A stretch of 22,612 nt of DNA from a virus. The notes under the pieces are model-generated. The model did no database searches. It had not been told where the DNA came from and was given only the letters and a program-made list of their open reading frames with translations. Positions 1 through 11,868 of the stretch are shown in pieces. The position numbers and the translations under genes were made by a program. The stretch covers positions 1 through 22,612 of the IMG/VR virus record IMGVR_UViG_3300010153_000130; one strand, written 5' to 3'. The number at the start of each line of letters is the position of its first letter. Within the stretch, counting starts at the first letter, position 1.

Positions 1-253
1 CTCTGTTGGGTGATATTTCTATTGATTTACCAGCAAATTGCATACTTCTCATTGATGGTAATATTTTCTTATCATATACTAATTTATATGTTTCTTCTAT
101 TTCTTTCTTTAAATCTGGATATTGTTTAATATGCATTTTTTCATTTCTAGCTACTAATTCACGCCAAGTTTCTCGTCTTTGAAACTCAGGTAAGTACCTA
201 GCGTATTTCATATAAACTGTAATATCTGATAAAATTTGTGAGGATATATCCAT
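1..253 (-). CDS. nrdJ: Ribonucleoside-triphosphate reductase, probable class II (B12-dependent), N-terminal part
   Basis: The gene starts with ATG at 251-253 behind a clear AGGAG and runs off the left edge, so only about 84 N-terminal residues are seen. They read MDISSQILSDITVYMKYARY..., then RRETWRELVARN, then LVYDKKILPSMRSMQFAGK. The blocks KYARYLPE-RRETW and KxxLPSMRSMQFAGK are typical of the N-terminus of monomeric adenosylcobalamin-dependent ribonucleotide reductases, recalled from the family. The enzyme reduces ribonucleotides to deoxyribonucleotides for phage DNA synthesis. The thiyl-radical cysteine and the cobalamin-binding region lie outside the window, so class II rests only on the N-terminal resemblance; a class I alpha subunit is the alternative. 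It is the last gene visible in the minus-strand run and follows the Mom-like gene after a 31-bp gap. Confidence 0.78.
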   Translation of the reverse strand, partial: MDISSQILSDITVYMKYARYLPEFQRRETWRELVARNEKMHIKQYPDLKKEIEETYKLVYDKKILPSMRSMQFAGKSIEISPNR

Positions 254-284
254 TCAATGTAACTCCTGTAATTAAGCGAACCAA

Positions 285-914
285 TTATAAATATTGATTT
301 AACATTTTCTTTTTCAATTTTTTATTCAAATAATAAGCAAAAATATTTTTAGGTTTTTTATCTATATAAAATATATTTTCATCCTTATTATCCCATCTTC
401 TTTTTAACTCTCTACCATAAGGTCTATGTTTATTATTCATAGATCTGGGATGGTACTCTTTCCCATCAACCATCAGTACCTTTGATGGTGACGTTTCACC
501 TAAATGTACAAAGTTTGTAGCTTTATAAATTGTACCTTCATGTCCTTGATTTAAATCAGAATATGAAATTATAACCTGTACATCTGTATTTTGTCTTATC
601 CATTGTAATGTTTTACCTATAAAGAAACTCTCCGTGTTTGTTGGTGTATCATCTATACAACACAATCTTCTCATTTCCCAACATCTTAATGGTTCATCTG
701 GGTGATATTTCTTAGCTGTATCTGGCATTGCTGGTTGCCCATATATAGCTGCTCCAATCATTCTTGGTAATCCAAACATACCATCAGGTGAATACAATGC
801 AAAACATTGTTTATGTTGTATCCCACCAGCGTAATGTGAATAATGATGTTTTTCAATAAAACCTGTTACTGCTTTTTTTACAACAGGTTCTATTGTAAAT
901 TCACTTACTTTCAA
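285..914 (-). CDS. Mom-like DNA modification protein, downstream copy
   Basis: This 209-residue protein resembles the phage Mu Mom family, a GNAT-like fold that converts adenine in DNA to N6-carbamoylmethyladenine and protects phage DNA from restriction. Visible family-type blocks are FIEKHHYSH (H24, Y25), MIGAAIYGQPA (52-62), RRLCCIDDTPTNTESFFIG (R83 central), ISYSD (116-120) and GTIYKATNF (127-135). His-Tyr, Arg, Ser and Asp residues in such blocks are reported to matter in Mu Mom; the mapping here is by eye. The start is TTG at 912-914, behind AAGGA; no ATG lies near it, and the paralogue upstream starts the same way. The frame overlaps that paralogue by 14 bp, which suggests translational coupling. 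The C-terminus is lysine-rich, as expected of a DNA-binding protein. The actual modification is unknown. Confidence 0.72.
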   Translation of the reverse strand: MKVSEFTIEPVVKKAVTGFIEKHHYSHYAGGIQHKQCFALYSPDGMFGLPRMIGAAIYGQPAMPDTAKKYHPDEPLRCWEMRRLCCIDDTPTNTESFFIGKTLQWIRQNTDVQVIISYSDLNQGHEGTIYKATNFVHLGETSPSKVLMVDGKEYHPRSMNNKHRPYGRELKRRWDNKDENIFYIDKKPKNIFAYYLNKKLKKKMLNQYL

Positions 915-1524
915 TATTTTTCCTTTTTAATTTCTTATCCAAGTAGTAAATATAAATATGTTTCTCACAAGTCTTTTTCCAATAGACATCTGAATCTTTA
1001 TCTTCCAATCTTTGTCTTATAATTTCAGCGTATGGTGAATCTTTTCTTAATGTTCTTCTATGATATTTCTTACCATCCACAATTAACACCTTATCACTCC
1101 CAGTCATATCATAATGAATAAAATTAGAAGCCTTATAAATAGTTCCATTATGATTATATTCAGGATCTGCATAAGATACAACAACTTGATAATCCGTGTG
1201 TTTATTCAACCATTTTAAAGTCTTACCAATGAAATAACTTTCTGTATTTTTAAGAGTATCATCAATACAACACAACCTATTTAATTCTAATACCTTACCA
1301 GACTGATTCCCATATTTATCAGTTCGTTGCCCTTCCATAGATGAAGGAACACCATATATCATAGATCCAATCAATTCATCCATCCCAAACTTACCTTCTT
1401 GAAATAAACCAAAACAATAAGATGTATGTAATCCTTTAACACTATTGGAATAATGATATTTTTCTATAAATGGTTTAACTACCTGAAATGTTGACAATTC
1501 TACTTTGTAATCAGTTACTTTCAA
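901..1524 (-). CDS. Mom-like DNA modification protein, upstream copy
   Basis: This 207-residue paralogue of the next gene aligns with it almost without gaps: FIEKYHYS, LIGSMIYGVP, NRLCCIDDTLKNTESYFIG, VSYAD and GTIYKASNF fall at the same residue numbers (H24, Y25, R83, S117, D120, Y130). All candidate active-site residues are kept in both copies, so neither looks decayed. The start is TTG at 1522-1524 inside the end of a 30-codon ORF. It is chosen because the paralogue begins with the same MKV[ST][DE][FY] sequence, with a GGAG about 10 nt upstream. The two proteins differ most between residues 63 and 80 and in the C-terminal quarter. They may form a heteromer, make different modifications or recognise different sequence contexts; the sequence alone cannot decide. 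Confidence 0.72.
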   Translation of the reverse strand: MKVTDYKVELSTFQVVKPFIEKYHYSNSVKGLHTSYCFGLFQEGKFGMDELIGSMIYGVPSSMEGQRTDKYGNQSGKVLELNRLCCIDDTLKNTESYFIGKTLKWLNKHTDYQVVVSYADPEYNHNGTIYKASNFIHYDMTGSDKVLIVDGKKYHRRTLRKDSPYAEIIRQRLEDKDSDVYWKKTCEKHIYIYYLDKKLKRKNIESK

Positions 1525-1603
1525 CTATAACATACTCCACATCATGTGATGATTCCCAGTAATCTTCTGGTATTTCTACATACCCTATTATTTTATTTTC
1601 CAT
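1511..1603 (-). CDS. Small 30-residue ORF between ASCH and Mom-like genes
   Basis: A short frame starts at ATG 1601-1603 and ends with TGA at 1511-1513. The product begins MENKIIGYVEIPEDYWESS and is acidic with no recognisable domain. Support for translation comes from a strong GGAGG 9 nt before the ATG and from overlaps at both ends: 11 bp with the upstream ASCH gene and 14 bp with the downstream Mom-like gene. It may be a real microprotein, or it may serve mainly to bring ribosomes to the weak TTG start of the Mom-like gene. No function can be assigned. Confidence 0.5.
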   Translation of the reverse strand: MENKIIGYVEIPEDYWESSHDVEYVIVESN

Positions 1604-1856
1604 TATAATTTACCTCCATAACTTTACCTAAATACAATTCAAAATCACCATCTTCATTTACATCCCACCCATTATACTCAACTAACATTGTTGGTGCATC
1701 TTTTGCATACCCATTTCTAAATTTTATCATGTCATATTCTCGATGTTCAATTCTTTTTTTCCAATATTCAGTTCTATTTCTATATTCAATAGTTTTAATA
1801 CCATCAGCTATTTCATCAAACCATTTTCTATATAAGTTAAGATTAAGAATCTTCAT
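1593..1856 (-). CDS. ASCH (PUA-like) domain protein
   Basis: This 87-residue protein matches the ASCH fold, a small beta-barrel related to the PUA RNA-binding domain. Recognisable blocks are LNLYRKWFDEIADGIKTIEYR at the N-terminus, the TEYWKKRI segment, YDMIKFRNGYAKDAPTM in the middle and a closing LGKV strand. In this superfamily the G-x-K-T-(I/V)-E-x-R motif near the N-terminus lines the ligand pocket. ASCH proteins are common in phages; proposed roles are RNA binding, and some members hydrolyse N4-acetylcytidine. The length is that of a stand-alone domain. The start ATG at 1854-1856 follows AGGA and overlaps the helicase stop by 14 bp, so the two are probably translated together. The position beside the Mom-like genes hints at nucleic-acid or nucleotide modification, but that is inference. 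Confidence 0.75.
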   Translation of the reverse strand: MKILNLNLYRKWFDEIADGIKTIEYRNRTEYWKKRIEHREYDMIKFRNGYAKDAPTMLVEYNGWDVNEDGDFELYLGKVMEVNYNGK

Positions 1857-3204
1857 TCATCAAATCCTCATAACTATTTTTCAACATTTTTCTGGCCACA
1901 TTATCTCTATTATTTATCTTATGTTGTTGTTCTTTACCATCAACAGTATCACCTTCATAAATTTTTATATCACCTATATTTGTATTTACTTTGGCTGGAT
2001 ATGTCAAACCATCAGGTCCGAATCTGTTTTTCATTACATGGAATCTACCAGTATTACCAATCTTATCTTCTACTTTTCTTGACAATGACATAACAAAATC
2101 TGCAGTCATAATCTTCTGATAACTTTCAGCTACTTTAGAAGCATCAATGAAATCTTCATCCAATGCACTTCTATTAGCCTGTGATGCTGTCCATATTGGT
2201 ATTTCAAACTCACCCGCCATACCTCTTAAATCTTCATAGATATTACCAAGTGCATGTCTTACCTCTCTAGCATTACCCACATCTCTCATTATGTCAGCGT
2301 AATCCACAACTACCATATCAATCTTATGTCCTAAAGTTTTCATTCTCTGTATATGAGCCGATATCGTATGTACAGAAGCAGATTTGGTTGGAAAGTATTT
2401 AATTGTTAAATTACCAGGTAAATCTTCTATTTTTTTTATTACATCATCTTTATGATATTTAAGATTTTGATTAGCTACACCTGAAAATACAGAATCATAT
2501 CTCAAACCAACATAGGCTTCATTTAACTCCAAAGTATAATGAATGACATTCATACCTTTTTTCAGAGCTCCAGACCCCAATGATGATAATACCCAAGATT
2601 TACCAATACCAGCAGGTGCTACAATCACACCAAGTTCACCTTGGCCCAAACCACCTTGCATCAAATCATTGATGACATCCCAAGGTGTTTCAACAGTAGT
2701 TCTTGCCATTTCCGAATATCTATGTTCAAAATCCTGAATATAATCATGACCGACATCTCGTTCAGTTCCAGCCTTCATAGCCTCATCAATTAAAACTTTA
2801 ATCTTCTCAAAATCACCACTACCCTCTAATATATCAACTGATTCTACAATAGCACTTTTAAGTGCTTGATTCTTAAAGAAGTCTAAAGCTTTATCTTGTA
2901 CAAACTCCAATTCAGGTGATTCTATGTTCTGGTATACCTGTTTTAGAGTATCAACAACTGTTGTTTTTAAGATATCATTTTTTATTTCACTAACAGACAT
3001 CTTAAATACATTTAATGTTGGTGATTTCTTATATTTAATAAAATACTTTTTACATTCTCGTACAACCCATCTTATAGCTTCATTGTCAAAATGTTTTTCA
3101 TCTAAAATGTCATGTATCTGTTCAACAAATTTAGATTCTGTCATTAAACTAACAATTAATTTTATTTGAAAATTATAACCAAAATCAGTTATTTTATTTG
3201 CCAC
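1843..3204 (-). CDS. 41: Replicative DNA helicase, gp41/DnaB-like
   Basis: This is a hexameric RecA-type helicase that would unwind DNA 5' to 3' at the phage fork and work with a primase. At 453 residues it is close to T4 gp41 (475). Residues 1-150 form the helical N-terminal domain and about 175-425 the ATPase. Walker A is APAGIGKS (196-203), the catalytic glutamate is likely E226 in TLELNE, Walker B is MVVVDYADIM with D301, the sensor glutamine is Q342 in ASQANRS, and KNRFG (392-396) fits the C-terminal basic motif. The start is GTG at 3202-3204 behind AGGGG. It overlaps the exonuclease stop by 11 bp. No separate primase is visible in this window, and the protein is too short to carry a primase domain. 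Confidence 0.9.
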   Translation of the reverse strand: MANKITDFGYNFQIKLIVSLMTESKFVEQIHDILDEKHFDNEAIRWVVRECKKYFIKYKKSPTLNVFKMSVSEIKNDILKTTVVDTLKQVYQNIESPELEFVQDKALDFFKNQALKSAIVESVDILEGSGDFEKIKVLIDEAMKAGTERDVGHDYIQDFEHRYSEMARTTVETPWDVINDLMQGGLGQGELGVIVAPAGIGKSWVLSSLGSGALKKGMNVIHYTLELNEAYVGLRYDSVFSGVANQNLKYHKDDVIKKIEDLPGNLTIKYFPTKSASVHTISAHIQRMKTLGHKIDMVVVDYADIMRDVGNAREVRHALGNIYEDLRGMAGEFEIPIWTASQANRSALDEDFIDASKVAESYQKIMTADFVMSLSRKVEDKIGNTGRFHVMKNRFGPDGLTYPAKVNTNIGDIKIYEGDTVDGKEQQHKINNRDNVARKMLKNSYEDLMNEDS

Positions 3205-4243
3205 TATTTACCCCTTTAATTCTATCCAATCTGATAAATTCTGTAACCCAGATATCAAAGTTTTTAATTTGATTTGATAATTTGTCTTGTAAAAACATTG
3301 TCTGAAATCTATATTTTATCAATTGTGGTATATCTCTACTTACTGCTTCTTGCACTTTTATTTTTATATGGTTAGGAATATCTACATCATCTAACTGCAT
3401 TAGTAGGTAATTCCGCTTAAGTAATATACCACTATTTTTTATATTATACAACAGCTTTATTTTAGAATCTGATTTTTCTGCATACTCCAATAAATCCTTA
3501 GCTGTAAATTTTTCCTCTTGTGAAATTCCAGGTAAAAATTTTATGAGGCTCTTTAGTCCGGCACCTTTTATTCCGCCTATATTATCCGATTTATCACCAT
3601 CTAATATTCTGTATGTGAGAAAGTTACATGCATGTATCCCATATTCTTCAAATATAGCTTTTTCATCATAAAATTTCTTTTTGGTTGGGCTCCAAACTTT
3701 AATTCTATTATCCACCAATTGTAAAAAATCCTTATCGGTGGACATTATAGTTATTTTACTATCTTTGAGTATTTGTTTAGATATATAAGCCATCACATCA
3801 TCAGCTTCAACATTATCAACTGATATTAATGTTATAGGTAATTGTTCTAAATAATCAACCAATCTACCCAATTGTAATTTCATTGATTCTTCTTCATCGG
3901 CAGGAGCTGTTCCCCAATCTACATTTCTATTGAGGCGTTTTCTTACTTTTCTATTTGCTTTATACTCTGGGTATATTTCTCGGCGTTTTTTTGATCCACC
4001 CTTACCATCAAATACAATAATACATCTGGAAGGTTGATGTAGATTTATTGAGTATCTTAATGATCGAAGAAATCCAATCAAACCACCAATATGCATACCA
4101 TCATCATTCAAAGATGGATTAACGGAATGGGCTCTAATAAATGTATTGAGCCCATCCACAATTAATACTCTATCATTTACTGATAGTTGTTTTGGTTCTT
4201 CATCTATTTGGTCTAAAAATGATATATATTTTTCTTTATCCAT
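3194..4243 (-). CDS. rnh: 5'-3' exonuclease, T4 RNase H / FEN-like
   Basis: This nuclease would remove RNA primers and adjacent DNA from Okazaki fragments. The 349 residues carry the FEN metal-site pattern: D30 in VLIVDGLN, D79 in IIVFDGKGGSKKRR, the EADD cluster at 146-149, D170 and D172 in STDKD, and D215/D217/D220 in LDGDKSDNIGGIKGAG, which also begins the helix-hairpin-helix. KKRREIYPEYKANR matches the arch region that threads the flap. T4 RNase H has 305 residues; the extra length is spread over N- and C-terminal extensions. The polymerase encoded upstream has no 5'-nuclease domain, so this separate gene probably supplies that activity. The start is ATG at 4241-4243 with a weak GGA upstream; it overlaps the preceding oxygenase by 8 bp. 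Confidence 0.9.
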   Translation of the reverse strand: MDKEKYISFLDQIDEEPKQLSVNDRVLIVDGLNTFIRAHSVNPSLNDDGMHIGGLIGFLRSLRYSINLHQPSRCIIVFDGKGGSKKRREIYPEYKANRKVRKRLNRNVDWGTAPADEEESMKLQLGRLVDYLEQLPITLISVDNVEADDVMAYISKQILKDSKITIMSTDKDFLQLVDNRIKVWSPTKKKFYDEKAIFEEYGIHACNFLTYRILDGDKSDNIGGIKGAGLKSLIKFLPGISQEEKFTAKDLLEYAEKSDSKIKLLYNIKNSGILLKRNYLLMQLDDVDIPNHIKIKVQEAVSRDIPQLIKYRFQTMFLQDKLSNQIKNFDIWVTEFIRLDRIKGVNSGK

Positions 4244-5060
4244 TATAATTTAATTTCCAATTTTTATATTTATCTTTTCTATTACTGACATTACTATAAA
4301 ACCATTGTATCATTGCATTACGTTCTATTTTTTTATTTTGAATAAAACCATGATAAGAATATGGTGATATTTCATACACAACCATTGAATTATTGACTGG
4401 TGGAATTTTTACATAAGGAATTTGATTTTCATAAGGAATCGCTTTAACAAAATTATTCTCATTATGATGTGTGTATAAACCTGTGTCCCCACCATACCCC
4501 TCATTCCACTCTTCATTACCGAGATAATATATACAAGCTATAGATTTTACTACTTGGTATGCGTTATCAACACCTGGTTCACCAGCATGTTTACATTGGA
4601 AATACCATGGATTTATACCATTGGGTAATTCATCTTTAACAAAATTCTGTAAATTCCAATCCGTATGTAAAAACCCGGATGTGCTGTTAACTTTGTGGTG
4701 ATGAAATGAAGATGCCGAATTTACAGTCAATTCTATATCAGGAAATAAATTTGATATAAAATTTTTCCATAAATTACTATAAAAAATAGATGTTATATTA
4801 CAATTAGGATCAGTCACTCTACTATAAGCGTCATATTTTGTTTCTTTAGTTATTTGACCGAAATAAGAAAACTTATTCATATCAAATGTATCAGAAATCC
4901 CACCGGATAATAATTCTATAAATTTAGAATGAAGCTTTTCATAAAATTCCTCAGTAAAAACATTTTTTATATGAGAATATCTGAAAGGTATATTTTCACC
5001 AAATATTTCAGCACTTTCATTAAAAATAGAATGATCAAAAAGATTATCAGGATATTTCAT
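4236..5060 (-). CDS. 2-oxoglutarate/Fe(II)-dependent oxygenase (prolyl-hydroxylase-like)
   Basis: This 274-residue protein has the double-stranded beta-helix signature of 2OG-Fe(II) dioxygenases. The iron ligands are likely H132 and D134 in LHTDW and H237 in YSYHGF; R247 in ERNAMIQWFY is placed to bind 2-oxoglutarate. Such enzymes couple decarboxylation of 2-oxoglutarate to hydroxylation of a substrate, which cannot be named here. A GTG two codons upstream would extend the frame to 5066, but AGAGG abuts that codon, whereas the ATG at 5058-5060 sits 5 nt from the same AGAGG, so the ATG is chosen. The gene overlaps the SDR gene upstream by 14 bp and lies in a three-gene oxidative cassette set between replication genes. 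Confidence 0.8.
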   Translation of the reverse strand: MKYPDNLFDHSIFNESAEIFGENIPFRYSHIKNVFTEEFYEKLHSKFIELLSGGISDTFDMNKFSYFGQITKETKYDAYSRVTDPNCNITSIFYSNLWKNFISNLFPDIELTVNSASSFHHHKVNSTSGFLHTDWNLQNFVKDELPNGINPWYFQCKHAGEPGVDNAYQVVKSIACIYYLGNEEWNEGYGGDTGLYTHHNENNFVKAIPYENQIPYVKIPPVNNSMVVYEISPYSYHGFIQNKKIERNAMIQWFYSNVSNRKDKYKNWKLNYNG

Positions 5061-5691
5061 ACACACCTCTTTTATTTTTTTCTATAGAATTTATAACATG
5101 AGAAGCAAAATATTCTACTGTTATAAAATCTTTTACTTTTTTATTGGTGTTTTTCCAATATGCTTCATGTTTACTTTTATAATCAAATCTATTAGTATTA
5201 TCATACTCACCTAATATTATTCCAGGTCTTAATATTAAAACCTTATCTTCATTATCCGTATATATTTCCCGTTCACATTTTAATTTATTAATACAATATT
5301 GTTTATAACCATATTCGTTCCCTTTATAAAAATTTATACCAAAATTTGATTGGTTGGTGTTATAATTACTGTAAAGATTTGAAGGAATATCATAAACTGA
5401 ACAACTTGAAATATAAACATATAAATGTATATTATTTTTAAAAAAATCAATGCTAGTTTTACAAAAAGAAGGTTCACCATACCAAGTATCAATAACAACA
5501 TCAAATTGTTCATAAAGAAGTGATGAATAATCATTTGTTAATCTATCACCTTGAAATCTAGGTACATCAGGAAATATATTATTATTAGTTACATTTCTAT
5601 TAAAGATACTTATATCATGTTTTCTTTTTATACATTCACTTACTATATATCTACCCACATAACTGGTGCCACCTAATATTAGTATATTCAT
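5047..5691 (-). CDS. NAD(P)-dependent epimerase/dehydratase-like protein (extended SDR)
   Basis: The N-terminus ILILGGTSYVGRYIV (GGTxxVG, 7-13) is the Rossmann dinucleotide-binding loop of extended short-chain dehydrogenases. YVYISSCSVYD (91-101) supplies the strand and serine of the active site, and Y132-x-x-x-K136 in QYCINKLKCE fits the catalytic YxxxK motif. ILRPGIILG (153-161) is also typical. At 214 residues it is about 80 to 100 shorter than usual nucleotide-sugar epimerases, and the missing part is the C-terminal substrate domain. It may therefore act on a small or unusual substrate or work in a complex. The ATG at 5689-5691 overlaps the previous stop as ATGA, so expression is coupled to the oxygenases on both sides. 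The substrate is unknown. Confidence 0.75.
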   Translation of the reverse strand: MNILILGGTSYVGRYIVSECIKRKHDISIFNRNVTNNNIFPDVPRFQGDRLTNDYSSLLYEQFDVVIDTWYGEPSFCKTSIDFFKNNIHLYVYISSCSVYDIPSNLYSNYNTNQSNFGINFYKGNEYGYKQYCINKLKCEREIYTDNEDKVLILRPGIILGEYDNTNRFDYKSKHEAYWKNTNKKVKDFITVEYFASHVINSIEKNKRGVYEIS

Positions 5692-6332
5692 TGCAATTCA
5701 CTTTCTTTGAAAAAAAATGTTTGTATCATTCTACAATTACTAAATTTATCACCAAAACCACTAGTACCAGAATGATACATATCACCTCGTGATAAGATAC
5801 ATCTGTTAAAAACATTACCAATTGATATATCATTAACCCAATTATCATTTTCTAAAAATATAGATTCTTTATCATTCAATGTTGCATATTTTATAGGTTC
5901 AACTGGTTTAACAACTTCATAACCTTTATCAATTGGGGCTTTTTTATTTAAAAAAATTATAGCTGACCAACCATCTTTACCAACATCATTACCATCACGT
6001 TTGTTTTTAATTTCATTATCATGTGAATGATATGACACGCTAGATCCTTCTAATTTACACAAAAATCTACCATTCCAAAAAACACCATCATCCCAAAATT
6101 TTATGTTTATACTATTTCCTATTATTTTTTCAAATTTTTTTCTAACTTTAGTAGGTTTATATAAACCATTGGATCTAAACCATCTATCTCTGCCAACAGA
6201 AGTATATGATTCACCATCCAATGGTTTATACGCGTGTGTAAAACCTGATTTTATAACATTATAAATTATATTTTCAGGTGAACTATAGAAATTATCAATC
6301 ACTATGAGTGATTTCCTATAGTTATATTTCAT
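5688..6332 (-). CDS. Putative 2OG-Fe(II) oxygenase-like protein (DUF6445-like)
   Basis: The 214-residue protein looks like a cupin/dioxygenase-fold protein of the type often listed as DUF6445. SVSYHSHDN (98-106) would hold the first metal ligands, GWSAIIFLNKKAP (121-133) is the core strand after them, and CILSRGDMYHSGTSGFGD (178-195) holds the distal ligand H187. NCRMIQTFFF follows, with R201 as the likely 2-oxoglutarate-binding arginine. The exact first two ligands are unclear because the segment reads HSHD rather than a clean HxD; catalytic competence is an inference. It overlaps UvsX by 11 bp upstream and shares an ATGA overlap with the SDR gene downstream. It shows no obvious sequence similarity to the other oxygenase, so the cassette does not look like a simple duplication. 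Confidence 0.6.
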   Translation of the reverse strand: MKYNYRKSLIVIDNFYSSPENIIYNVIKSGFTHAYKPLDGESYTSVGRDRWFRSNGLYKPTKVRKKFEKIIGNSINIKFWDDGVFWNGRFLCKLEGSSVSYHSHDNEIKNKRDGNDVGKDGWSAIIFLNKKAPIDKGYEVVKPVEPIKYATLNDKESIFLENDNWVNDISIGNVFNRCILSRGDMYHSGTSGFGDKFSNCRMIQTFFFKESELQ

Positions 6333-9987: not shown

Positions 9988-11868
9988 TTAACTTCCCCAT
10001 ACCTTAGCATATCTTTTATTATTTGTTACTTTCTCTGAAAGTTTAACTCTTTTTTTAAGATAATTTACAAACTCGTCTTTTTGATTTTTGCCATAAGTTT
10101 TACCATTAAGTAGTTTACCATTTTCATCTCTTTGATTTGCAAATTTTCTAGCACCACTCCAAGCTTTTTTATATTCAGCTCTTTTTTCTTTTGGTGCATC
10201 AACAATAGATAAAACAAATCCACGATAAAAACTATCACTTGAAATTTGGTTAGTTCTACGATTTTCATCTTCAAGATTACCAGCTAACCCCAATGCATTT
10301 AATGTTCTTTTACCTATACTACTTATTAATGTATTGGCTTTCGAACGATCTTCTTTTTGTAATTTTTCTTTTAAAAGAGTTTTTTGATTTAAAAATTCTT
10401 TATCCTCAAATTCAAATTCATTTTCTAATGTATCATATGTTACATTTGAATTAAAATTAGCATCTACTATTTCAGGTCTACCATAATCTGTTAAAGTAAG
10501 TTCTGGTCTTTCTTCTGCATTCATAGCATCAATTTCAGATTGACTGATATTCCCACCACCCTTTATGGCATAATGAACATCATCCATTTGTCTCCAAGCT
10601 GTTTGTTCAGTCCTAGTTTTCATTGGTTCAACAGATTCAATAGATTGTTGTATTTTTTCAAAATCTTCTTTACTTCTTTTACTTAATGAATCGACTCTAC
10701 TTTCAAAAAAGTTTTTCATGTTCATATCTTTTTTATTTTGATTTGCTCTTGATGAAGTTAAAACATGATTTTTTTCATTTTCTCTATCCATATAATCTTT
10801 ATCTGTTGGGTTTCCTTTATCTGAATTTTCCAATCCTACAACATGTTCCAAATCCATAGCTTCCAAATCAAGTGGTAAACCAGTGTAAGCATCTACACCA
10901 CCTTGTTCCAAATACATTCTCCAAACCAATATACCTCTAGTAGTCGAAGGAACTCCACCTCTCACCACAACTGGATTACCTTTTTCATCTTTTTGAACAT
11001 CAGGGTCATTAATATCAGTTGTAGGTGTACCATCTGTTCTCTGATAACCATGAAAATGATTTTTACCTATTTTTTTACCACCCGACCCCGCACCTTTTAA
11101 ATATTTTTGTAATGGTTTAGGTAATGTACTAAAAGAAGATTGTACAACATTTTCAGGAACTTTATTTTTTCTAACTGACCTTACCAATTTTTCTACATGT
11201 TCTGGTGAACCATCACCATATCCTTCTATTAAATTTTTTCTATTACGAGTTAATTGTTGTACATCAGCATGACCAAATGCATTTTTCATAAATCCTGCAT
11301 TATCTCTTCTTCCATAAAGTTGTCCTATTGCCGTTAGATGTAAAATATTTTCTTGCATATCACCACCCATATCATTAAGTGCCGAACCTAATGCTTCTCT
11401 TATTTCATTTTTATTATTTTCTTCATCTTTTGTATCTTGATTAAATTCTTTTTTAGCTTCTTCATTAACAATTCTTTTTGATGAATCTGTTTGTTTTCCT
11501 ATATTATCTTTTAATTTTTTAGATTTTTGTTCTTTTTCTGAAGGTTCTACTGGCTTTAGTTTTCCAGAAGTATCAGGTTTTAATGTATCTGGATCACCGT
11601 CATAATATTTCCCACCTTTTGGACCTACCTTTATTTTTGCACCTTTTGGAGCTTTTCCAGCGGGCCAAGATGATTTATAAATTTTATCTTCCTCAATACC
11701 CCTAACACTATTCAACATTCTCAATTTTTGTTCTTCTGTTAAATCAAATTTTTCTAAAACACTTTCTAATATAACAACATGATATGGATTATTTTTATTA
11801 AGAATACCAGTGGGTATCGCATCTTGCCATGCATTACCTATATCTTCAACAATCTTATCAAATTCCAT
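9988..11868 (-). CDS. Large protein with an HNH-type nuclease motif
   Basis: This 626-residue protein has several regions. Residues 1-56 form a helical start (NPYHVVILESVLEKFDLTEE). Residues 60-165 are charged, probably disordered, and include a basic GPKGGKYYDGD motif (82-92). A helical middle follows, and at about 324-388 there is an HNH-like core: GVDAYTGLPLDL, then MDLEHVVGL with H342, then ENEKNHVL (N364, N367) and RANQNKKDMN (N376). The D-x-E-H, N-x2-N and N-x2-K spacing fits the beta-beta-alpha metal fold of HNH nucleases. The C-terminal 230 residues have no recognised domain. Possible roles are DNA processing, host DNA attack or mobility; a homing endonuclease is less likely because there is no intron or intein nearby. 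It starts 1 bp after the polymerase gene, with AGGAG overlapping that gene's end. Confidence 0.6.
   Translation of the reverse strand: MEFDKIVEDIGNAWQDAIPTGILNKNNPYHVVILESVLEKFDLTEEQKLRMLNSVRGIEEDKIYKSSWPAGKAPKGAKIKVGPKGGKYYDGDPDTLKPDTSGKLKPVEPSEKEQKSKKLKDNIGKQTDSSKRIVNEEAKKEFNQDTKDEENNKNEIREALGSALNDMGGDMQENILHLTAIGQLYGRRDNAGFMKNAFGHADVQQLTRNRKNLIEGYGDGSPEHVEKLVRSVRKNKVPENVVQSSFSTLPKPLQKYLKGAGSGGKKIGKNHFHGYQRTDGTPTTDINDPDVQKDEKGNPVVVRGGVPSTTRGILVWRMYLEQGGVDAYTGLPLDLEAMDLEHVVGLENSDKGNPTDKDYMDRENEKNHVLTSSRANQNKKDMNMKNFFESRVDSLSKRSKEDFEKIQQSIESVEPMKTRTEQTAWRQMDDVHYAIKGGGNISQSEIDAMNAEERPELTLTDYGRPEIVDANFNSNVTYDTLENEFEFEDKEFLNQKTLLKEKLQKEDRSKANTLISSIGKRTLNALGLAGNLEDENRRTNQISSDSFYRGFVLSIVDAPKEKRAEYKKAWSGARKFANQRDENGKLLNGKTYGKNQKDEFVNYLKKRVKLSEKVTNNKRYAKVWGS

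Follow-up and report, generated by a model that had tools for sequence, protein, structure and literature searches.

The uncultured marine phage contig IMGVR_UViG_3300010153_000130 of IMG/VR (22,612 nt; this whole stretch was analysed and is called the window here) carries two different, adjacent Mom genes, both on the minus strand. Mom-A (285-914) encodes an intact Mom-family acyltransferase of 209 amino acids, and Mom-B (901-1524) encodes an intact Mom-family acyltransferase of 207 amino acids from a lineage other than that of Mom-A; both genes start with TTG, and AAGGA lies upstream of the Mom-A start. As the original prediction had it, the two Mom-like genes overlap, by 14 bp, and their products align almost without gaps (44% identity over 204 aligned positions with 3 gap positions, E 8e-64). 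We favor, with moderate confidence, the interpretation that both are intact adenine-modifying Moms, that Mom-A is ancestral in its genomic slot and that Mom-B was added for protection, probably through other sequence contexts or greater coverage.

Both profile searches and structure comparison placed the two proteins in the Mom family. The Pfam Mom profile (PF25680) matched A with 119.8 bits (E 1.6e-34) and B with 131.6 bits (E 4e-38) against a cut-off of 27.1, which excludes a chance resemblance to Mom, and PHROG 1384, annotated as 'Mom-like DNA modification protein', matched A with E 6e-51 and B with E 2.5e-56. The sole significant relative of solved structure found by sequence was phage Mu Mom (PDB 8bv8). 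AlphaFold2 models of both proteins were confident (A, pLDDT 92.6 and pTM 0.84; B, pLDDT 89.5 and pTM 0.82), and Foldseek ranked 8bv8 first for each (E 8.5e-13 for A, about 3e-12 for B), with ordinary GNATs six to seven orders of magnitude behind in either case. VIA structural realignment of A to Mu Mom gave Z 20.3 over 178 residues, with the next GNAT at 14.6. The Mom/GNAT fold proposed for both proteins was thus confirmed by structure comparison. Neither A nor B had a PADLOC match at E 0.1, to DruA or to any other profile.

All candidate active-site residues of the original prediction, H24, Y25, R83, S117, D120 and Y130, are identical in A and B under the same numbering, and the alignment showed them to be invariant across 44 relatives. 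S124 of Mu Mom, the residue named in the title of PDB 8bv8 ('inactive mutant S124A'), aligns with S96 of A and B; S96, which was absent from the earlier residue list, is kept in both proteins and is likewise invariant in the 44 relatives, so that the best documented catalytic position is present in both. The full set found in A and B comprises H24, Y25, E80, R83, D88, S96, S117, D120, Y130 and N134. Only one clade-diagnostic residue, C78V, separates the A-type from the B-type clade. A specificity signature in the loop at residues 60-77 was considered and rejected: the loop is 11% identical between A and B, a divergence at the 10th percentile among 498 pairs of similar overall identity and hence within the family background, which leaves no positive sequence sign of differing specificity.

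Two intact Mom/GNAT enzymes in one genome, where Mu carries a single Mom, had been proposed for this locus, and substitution patterns agree with this: dN/dS was 0.09-0.17 for Mom-A (window versus the orthologues in L003, L005 and L004) and 0.13 for Mom-B (window versus L051), values by which both copies are judged to be under purifying selection, with neither decaying. In a tree of 81 Mom-family proteins, A grouped with its counterparts from L003, L004, L005 and L215 (support 100/100) within a larger A-type clade (96/97), and B grouped with that of L051 (100/99) within a separate B-type clade (99/98). A recent tandem duplication was rejected, since the AU test excluded A and B as sisters (p-AU 1.9e-8); placement of B inside the A-type clade was rejected as well (p-AU 0.005). 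Both the tree and the AU tests therefore indicate that the pair was assembled from two old Mom lineages. A second pair of the same subfamily is found at L051:8001-9234, and the AU test also rejected these copies as sisters, placing them on separate branches. The first and last residues of the L051 copies are almost identical, which hints at possible gene conversion at the ends.

In the window, the slot occupied by the pair is bordered upstream by a DnaB-like replicative helicase gene (1843-3204) and downstream by the N-terminal part of a ribonucleotide reductase gene (2-253), which runs off the window. Between the helicase gene and Mom-B lie a gene for an ASCH-like (PUA-type) protein of 87 amino acids (1593-1856) and a conserved micro-gene of 30 codons (1511-1603) with the motif GY[IV]EIPEDYWxxSHxVEY, all on the minus strand. 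Related contigs fill this slot differently. In L003, the Mom-A is 87% identical to that of the window, and the place of B holds a DruA/Mom-like gene without equivalents of E80, S117 and D120; in L005, L097 and L117, the micro-gene abuts an A-type Mom directly, with no gene between. The position of B in relatives is thus either empty or filled by a DruA-like paralogue, and the slot between the micro-gene and Mom-A takes Mom-superfamily genes rather than housing a fixed two-gene system. Neither the scans nor a junction-pattern scan of viral contigs, which may conceal near-identical records, turned up a second contig with B adjoining A; this precise arrangement has been seen in a single contig of 22.6 kb, and constant co-occurrence of A and B in related phages did not hold among the contigs scanned.

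The small ORF noticed upstream of Mom-B proved to be a real, conserved gene that overlaps the Mom-B start codon. It was found in about ten relatives, each time upstream of a Mom and with the motif GY[IV]EIPEDYW or close variants, and its pooled pN was 0.154 versus a pS of 0.422. Its overlap with the TTG start of Mom-B suggests that the two may be translationally coupled. The gene upstream of it, initially described as an ASCH gene, precedes Mom repeatedly, in 6 of 97 dereplicated groups, but can be called no more than ASCH-like, as it scored 19.9 bits against the Pfam ASCH cut-off of 21.2; it matched PHROG 625 (unknown function) with E 2e-20. A dedicated operon of the ASCH-like gene, the micro-gene and the Moms was not borne out, because all of them are members of one long, overlapping, co-directional gene train that runs from the helicase to the ribonucleotide reductase. 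Promoter-like sites gave no sign of a dedicated promoter (24 observed versus 28.8 expected), and no minus-strand terminator-like site was found in positions 1-4300, the region examined for terminators. Neither a Com-like regulator, a known RNA element nor a tRNA was found in the window. The immediate neighbors of the pair are the ASCH-like gene and micro-gene on one side and the ribonucleotide reductase gene on the other, with no nuclease fused to or adjoining the pair and no extra biosynthetic gene beside it.

Elsewhere in the window, 2OG-Fe(II) oxygenase-like, NAD-dependent epimerase-like and DUF6445/PHROG 1644-like genes lie between an exonuclease gene and a RecA/UvsX gene (4236-6332). A 626-amino-acid protein (9988-11868) belongs to PHROG 3561 and has no Pfam match; a possible HNH-like stretch, YTGLPLD...DLEHVVGLEN, was recognized in it by eye only.

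Alignment-guided scans of IMG/VR, dereplicated by shared sequence, yielded 174 environmental viral groups. Among the matches listed, Mom-superfamily genes stand head to tail in 2 to 5 copies in 31 of the 174 groups, a count that depends on the queries and on best-80 lists and is not a population frequency. Two Mom subfamilies are distinguished here by the coined labels F and W, according to the residue with which their YxxxN motif ends. Among the matches listed, arrays were of the W-W type in eight cases, the F-W type in four (including L016 and L097, where an F-type Mom is followed by a W-type Mom) and the F-F type in two, the window and L051. Larger arrays include three W-type genes in L256, an F-W-W-W array in L215 and five genes in L134/L255; in L134, the array follows a helicase gene and consists of two DruA/Mom-like genes and then three consecutive Moms, of which the final one is truncated by the contig end. 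The four Moms of L215 all score over the Pfam cut-off; S117A in the third and D120S in the fourth show that full conservation does not extend to all array members. An HNH-like endonuclease gene overlaps the first of these four genes (L215:1317-4904); HNH genes adjoin Mom in L215, L086 and similar relatives, not in the window. The DruA/Mom-like family without the Mom catalytic set is widespread (L003:7409-7996, L023:8309-8914, L134:3688-4287, L328 and others); it occurs with no Mom nearby in 31 of 46 groups, and tblastn against isolate phages gave no match to it. Several F-type Moms begin with TTG, both in the window (901-914 and 1511-1524) and in L003, L016 and L097; these starts may serve to maintain low expression. 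Artificially expressed Mom has been reported to be toxic (PMC12707154).

In the cases examined, the arrays lie mostly inside replisome gene clusters. W-type Moms of relatives are found between the sliding clamp and the clamp loader, and F-type Moms either next to the helicase or behind a small gene of clamp-loader type; these replisome gene identities were read from sequence, and some were confirmed by profiles. In L145 (IMGVR_UViG_3300010883_012539), an F-x-x-W-[F/P] tail closes four Mom-superfamily proteins; it also forms the C-terminus of the family-B DNA polymerase of the same contig and occurs in 1 of 1,673 control ORF tails. The tail probably serves for docking to the sliding clamp. It is through the C-terminus that T4-type polymerases bind their clamp. 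The alpha-glucosyltransferase of T4, for its part, copurifies with its clamp (PMC13216743). Taken with the tail shared with the polymerase, both points suggest replication-coupled modification in the L145 phage. The observation of the L145 tail applies to L406/L407 too. A replication-clamp tail was also looked for on A and B and is absent from both, though clear in L145.

Judging from the conserved family features, A and B most likely both modify phage DNA; that they differ in target sequence context is our favored guess. Each Mom would modify the adenines of phage DNA at N6 with an acyl-derived group (methylcarbamoyl in the case of Mu), and modification during or after replication would shield this DNA from host nucleases. 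The lineage would already have had Mom-A in the slot between helicase and ribonucleotide reductase when Mom-B arrived from another lineage and became integrated between the micro-gene and Mom-A. B would then have been retained for protection beyond that given by A alone, most likely by hitting adenines in other sequence contexts or by raising total coverage. A measured precedent for keeping two modification enzymes comes from T4, in which one glucosyltransferase suffices against restriction but both are required once a glycosylase that targets the modification is added to the defences (PMC13216743). More tentatively, and with doubt outweighing confidence, we propose that marine viruses build Mom arrays of 2 to 5 enzymes from different lineages at replisome slots, which would give a combinatorial adenine hypermodification that differs between related phages, with some sets tethered to the clamp.

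Several other explanations of the pair were weighed. B might act on the same sites as A, so that a second copy lifts the modified fraction over a protection threshold or covers other infection times. The identical active sites and near lack of clade-diagnostic residues are consistent with such a dosage or back-up role, and a glucosylation threshold of about 80% matters in T4 (PMC13216743); however, plain duplication could supply dosage, whereas the two copies come from long-separated lineages and many arrays mix F with W subfamilies, and we regard this explanation as rather unlikely. A difference in chemistry, with each enzyme transferring its own acyl group to adenine or the two acting sequentially on one base, would suit an acyl-CoA-using GNAT fold and the combination of several subfamilies in one genome, but appears unlikely, given that the catalytic and surrounding invariant residues are all the same and no additional biosynthetic gene adjoins the pair. 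The existence of a DruA-like family that stands beside Moms without the catalytic set, and often without a Mom, raises the thought that the superfamily may have other roles, so that one copy might act on host DNA, on RNA or on a small molecule, for instance to counter defences or to take over the host; both A and B, though, are members of the Mom family itself and have complete active sites, which makes another target quite improbable for either.

The original prediction had also considered an obligate heteromer. Adjacent, overlapping genes for proteins that are 44% identical and of the same fold could encode one working unit, obligate or preferred, and two chains are present in the crystal entry of Mu Mom. 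Close relatives of Mom-A in L003, L004, L005 and L215 nevertheless lack B, and the closest relative of B, in L051, lacks A and lies in a different genomic context, so an obligate A+B unit is not supported; with full active sites in both proteins, neither resembles a silent partner, and a heteromer of any kind seems very unlikely. Finally, B and A might have been wrongly joined from two phages of one sample, as their junction was found in no other viral contig (with near-identical records possibly concealed) and the best relative of B has a different context. Against such an assembly chimera, which we consider highly improbable, the 14-bp overlap is clean, the conserved micro-gene lies upstream and the ribonucleotide reductase downstream, and independent contigs fill the slot in other ways (L003, L016, L097 and L134).

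In cultured phages, tblastn with B gave 284 Mom places in 283 isolate-phage records, one of which has two places, and a W-type query gave 220 places in 220 records, so that cultured phages carry practically one Mom each. Bacterial genomes yielded 27 loci, mostly distant partial relatives. No account of tandem Moms was found in the searchable literature, nor any of adjacent diverged Moms concentrated in marine-phage replisome clusters; the main Mu Mom enzymology papers lie outside that scope. An undescribed hypermodification system, as originally suggested, is thus too strong a description of the pair, since A and B are ordinary members of the known Mom family, while multi-Mom arrays as a class appear to be undescribed in the searchable literature. 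Mom is among the oldest known DNA hypermodification enzymes and has so far been regarded as one gene per phage. Intact, diverged Mom arrays would let phages mix adenine-modification enzymes as their hosts mix restriction enzymes, and related phages that differ by single Mom insertions represent a natural experiment on the sequence context of Mom.

Among known systems, DruA (DUF4338) of Druantia is a distant relative of Mom; A and B are Moms and not DruA-like, whereas the family that fills the place of B in L003 matches DruA by Pfam (1.2e-5, L023 member) and PADLOC (3.7e-6, L134 member). Mom-nuclease fusions of jumbo phages (PMC7824862) show the Mom family in large lytic phages, with a fused nuclease that the window pair does not have. 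The multispecific methyltransferases of temperate Bacillus phages, as cited in PMC12707154, presumably have the same aim of covering many restriction sites, but as described there they hold several target domains in one polypeptide, whereas several genes are used in the window. The alpha- and beta-glucosyltransferases of T4 are likewise a pair of DNA hypermodification enzymes, the second of which becomes necessary once defences are combined (PMC13216743); they resemble A and B by function only, being other enzymes that act on 5-hydroxymethylcytosine and are not adjacent homologues. Phage Mu Mom (PDB 8bv8, PF25680, PHROG 1384) has the same family and fold, and its active-site H, Y, E, R, D, S124-equivalent, S, D, Y and N are all kept in A and B. 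In the Mu-type com-mom operon, the gene for the zinc-finger protein Com overlaps mom, whereas the overlapping upstream gene of the window encodes a 30-amino-acid peptide without cysteine; and Mu has one Mom copy, preceded by com and located near the genome end, whereas the window has two copies in a replisome cluster.
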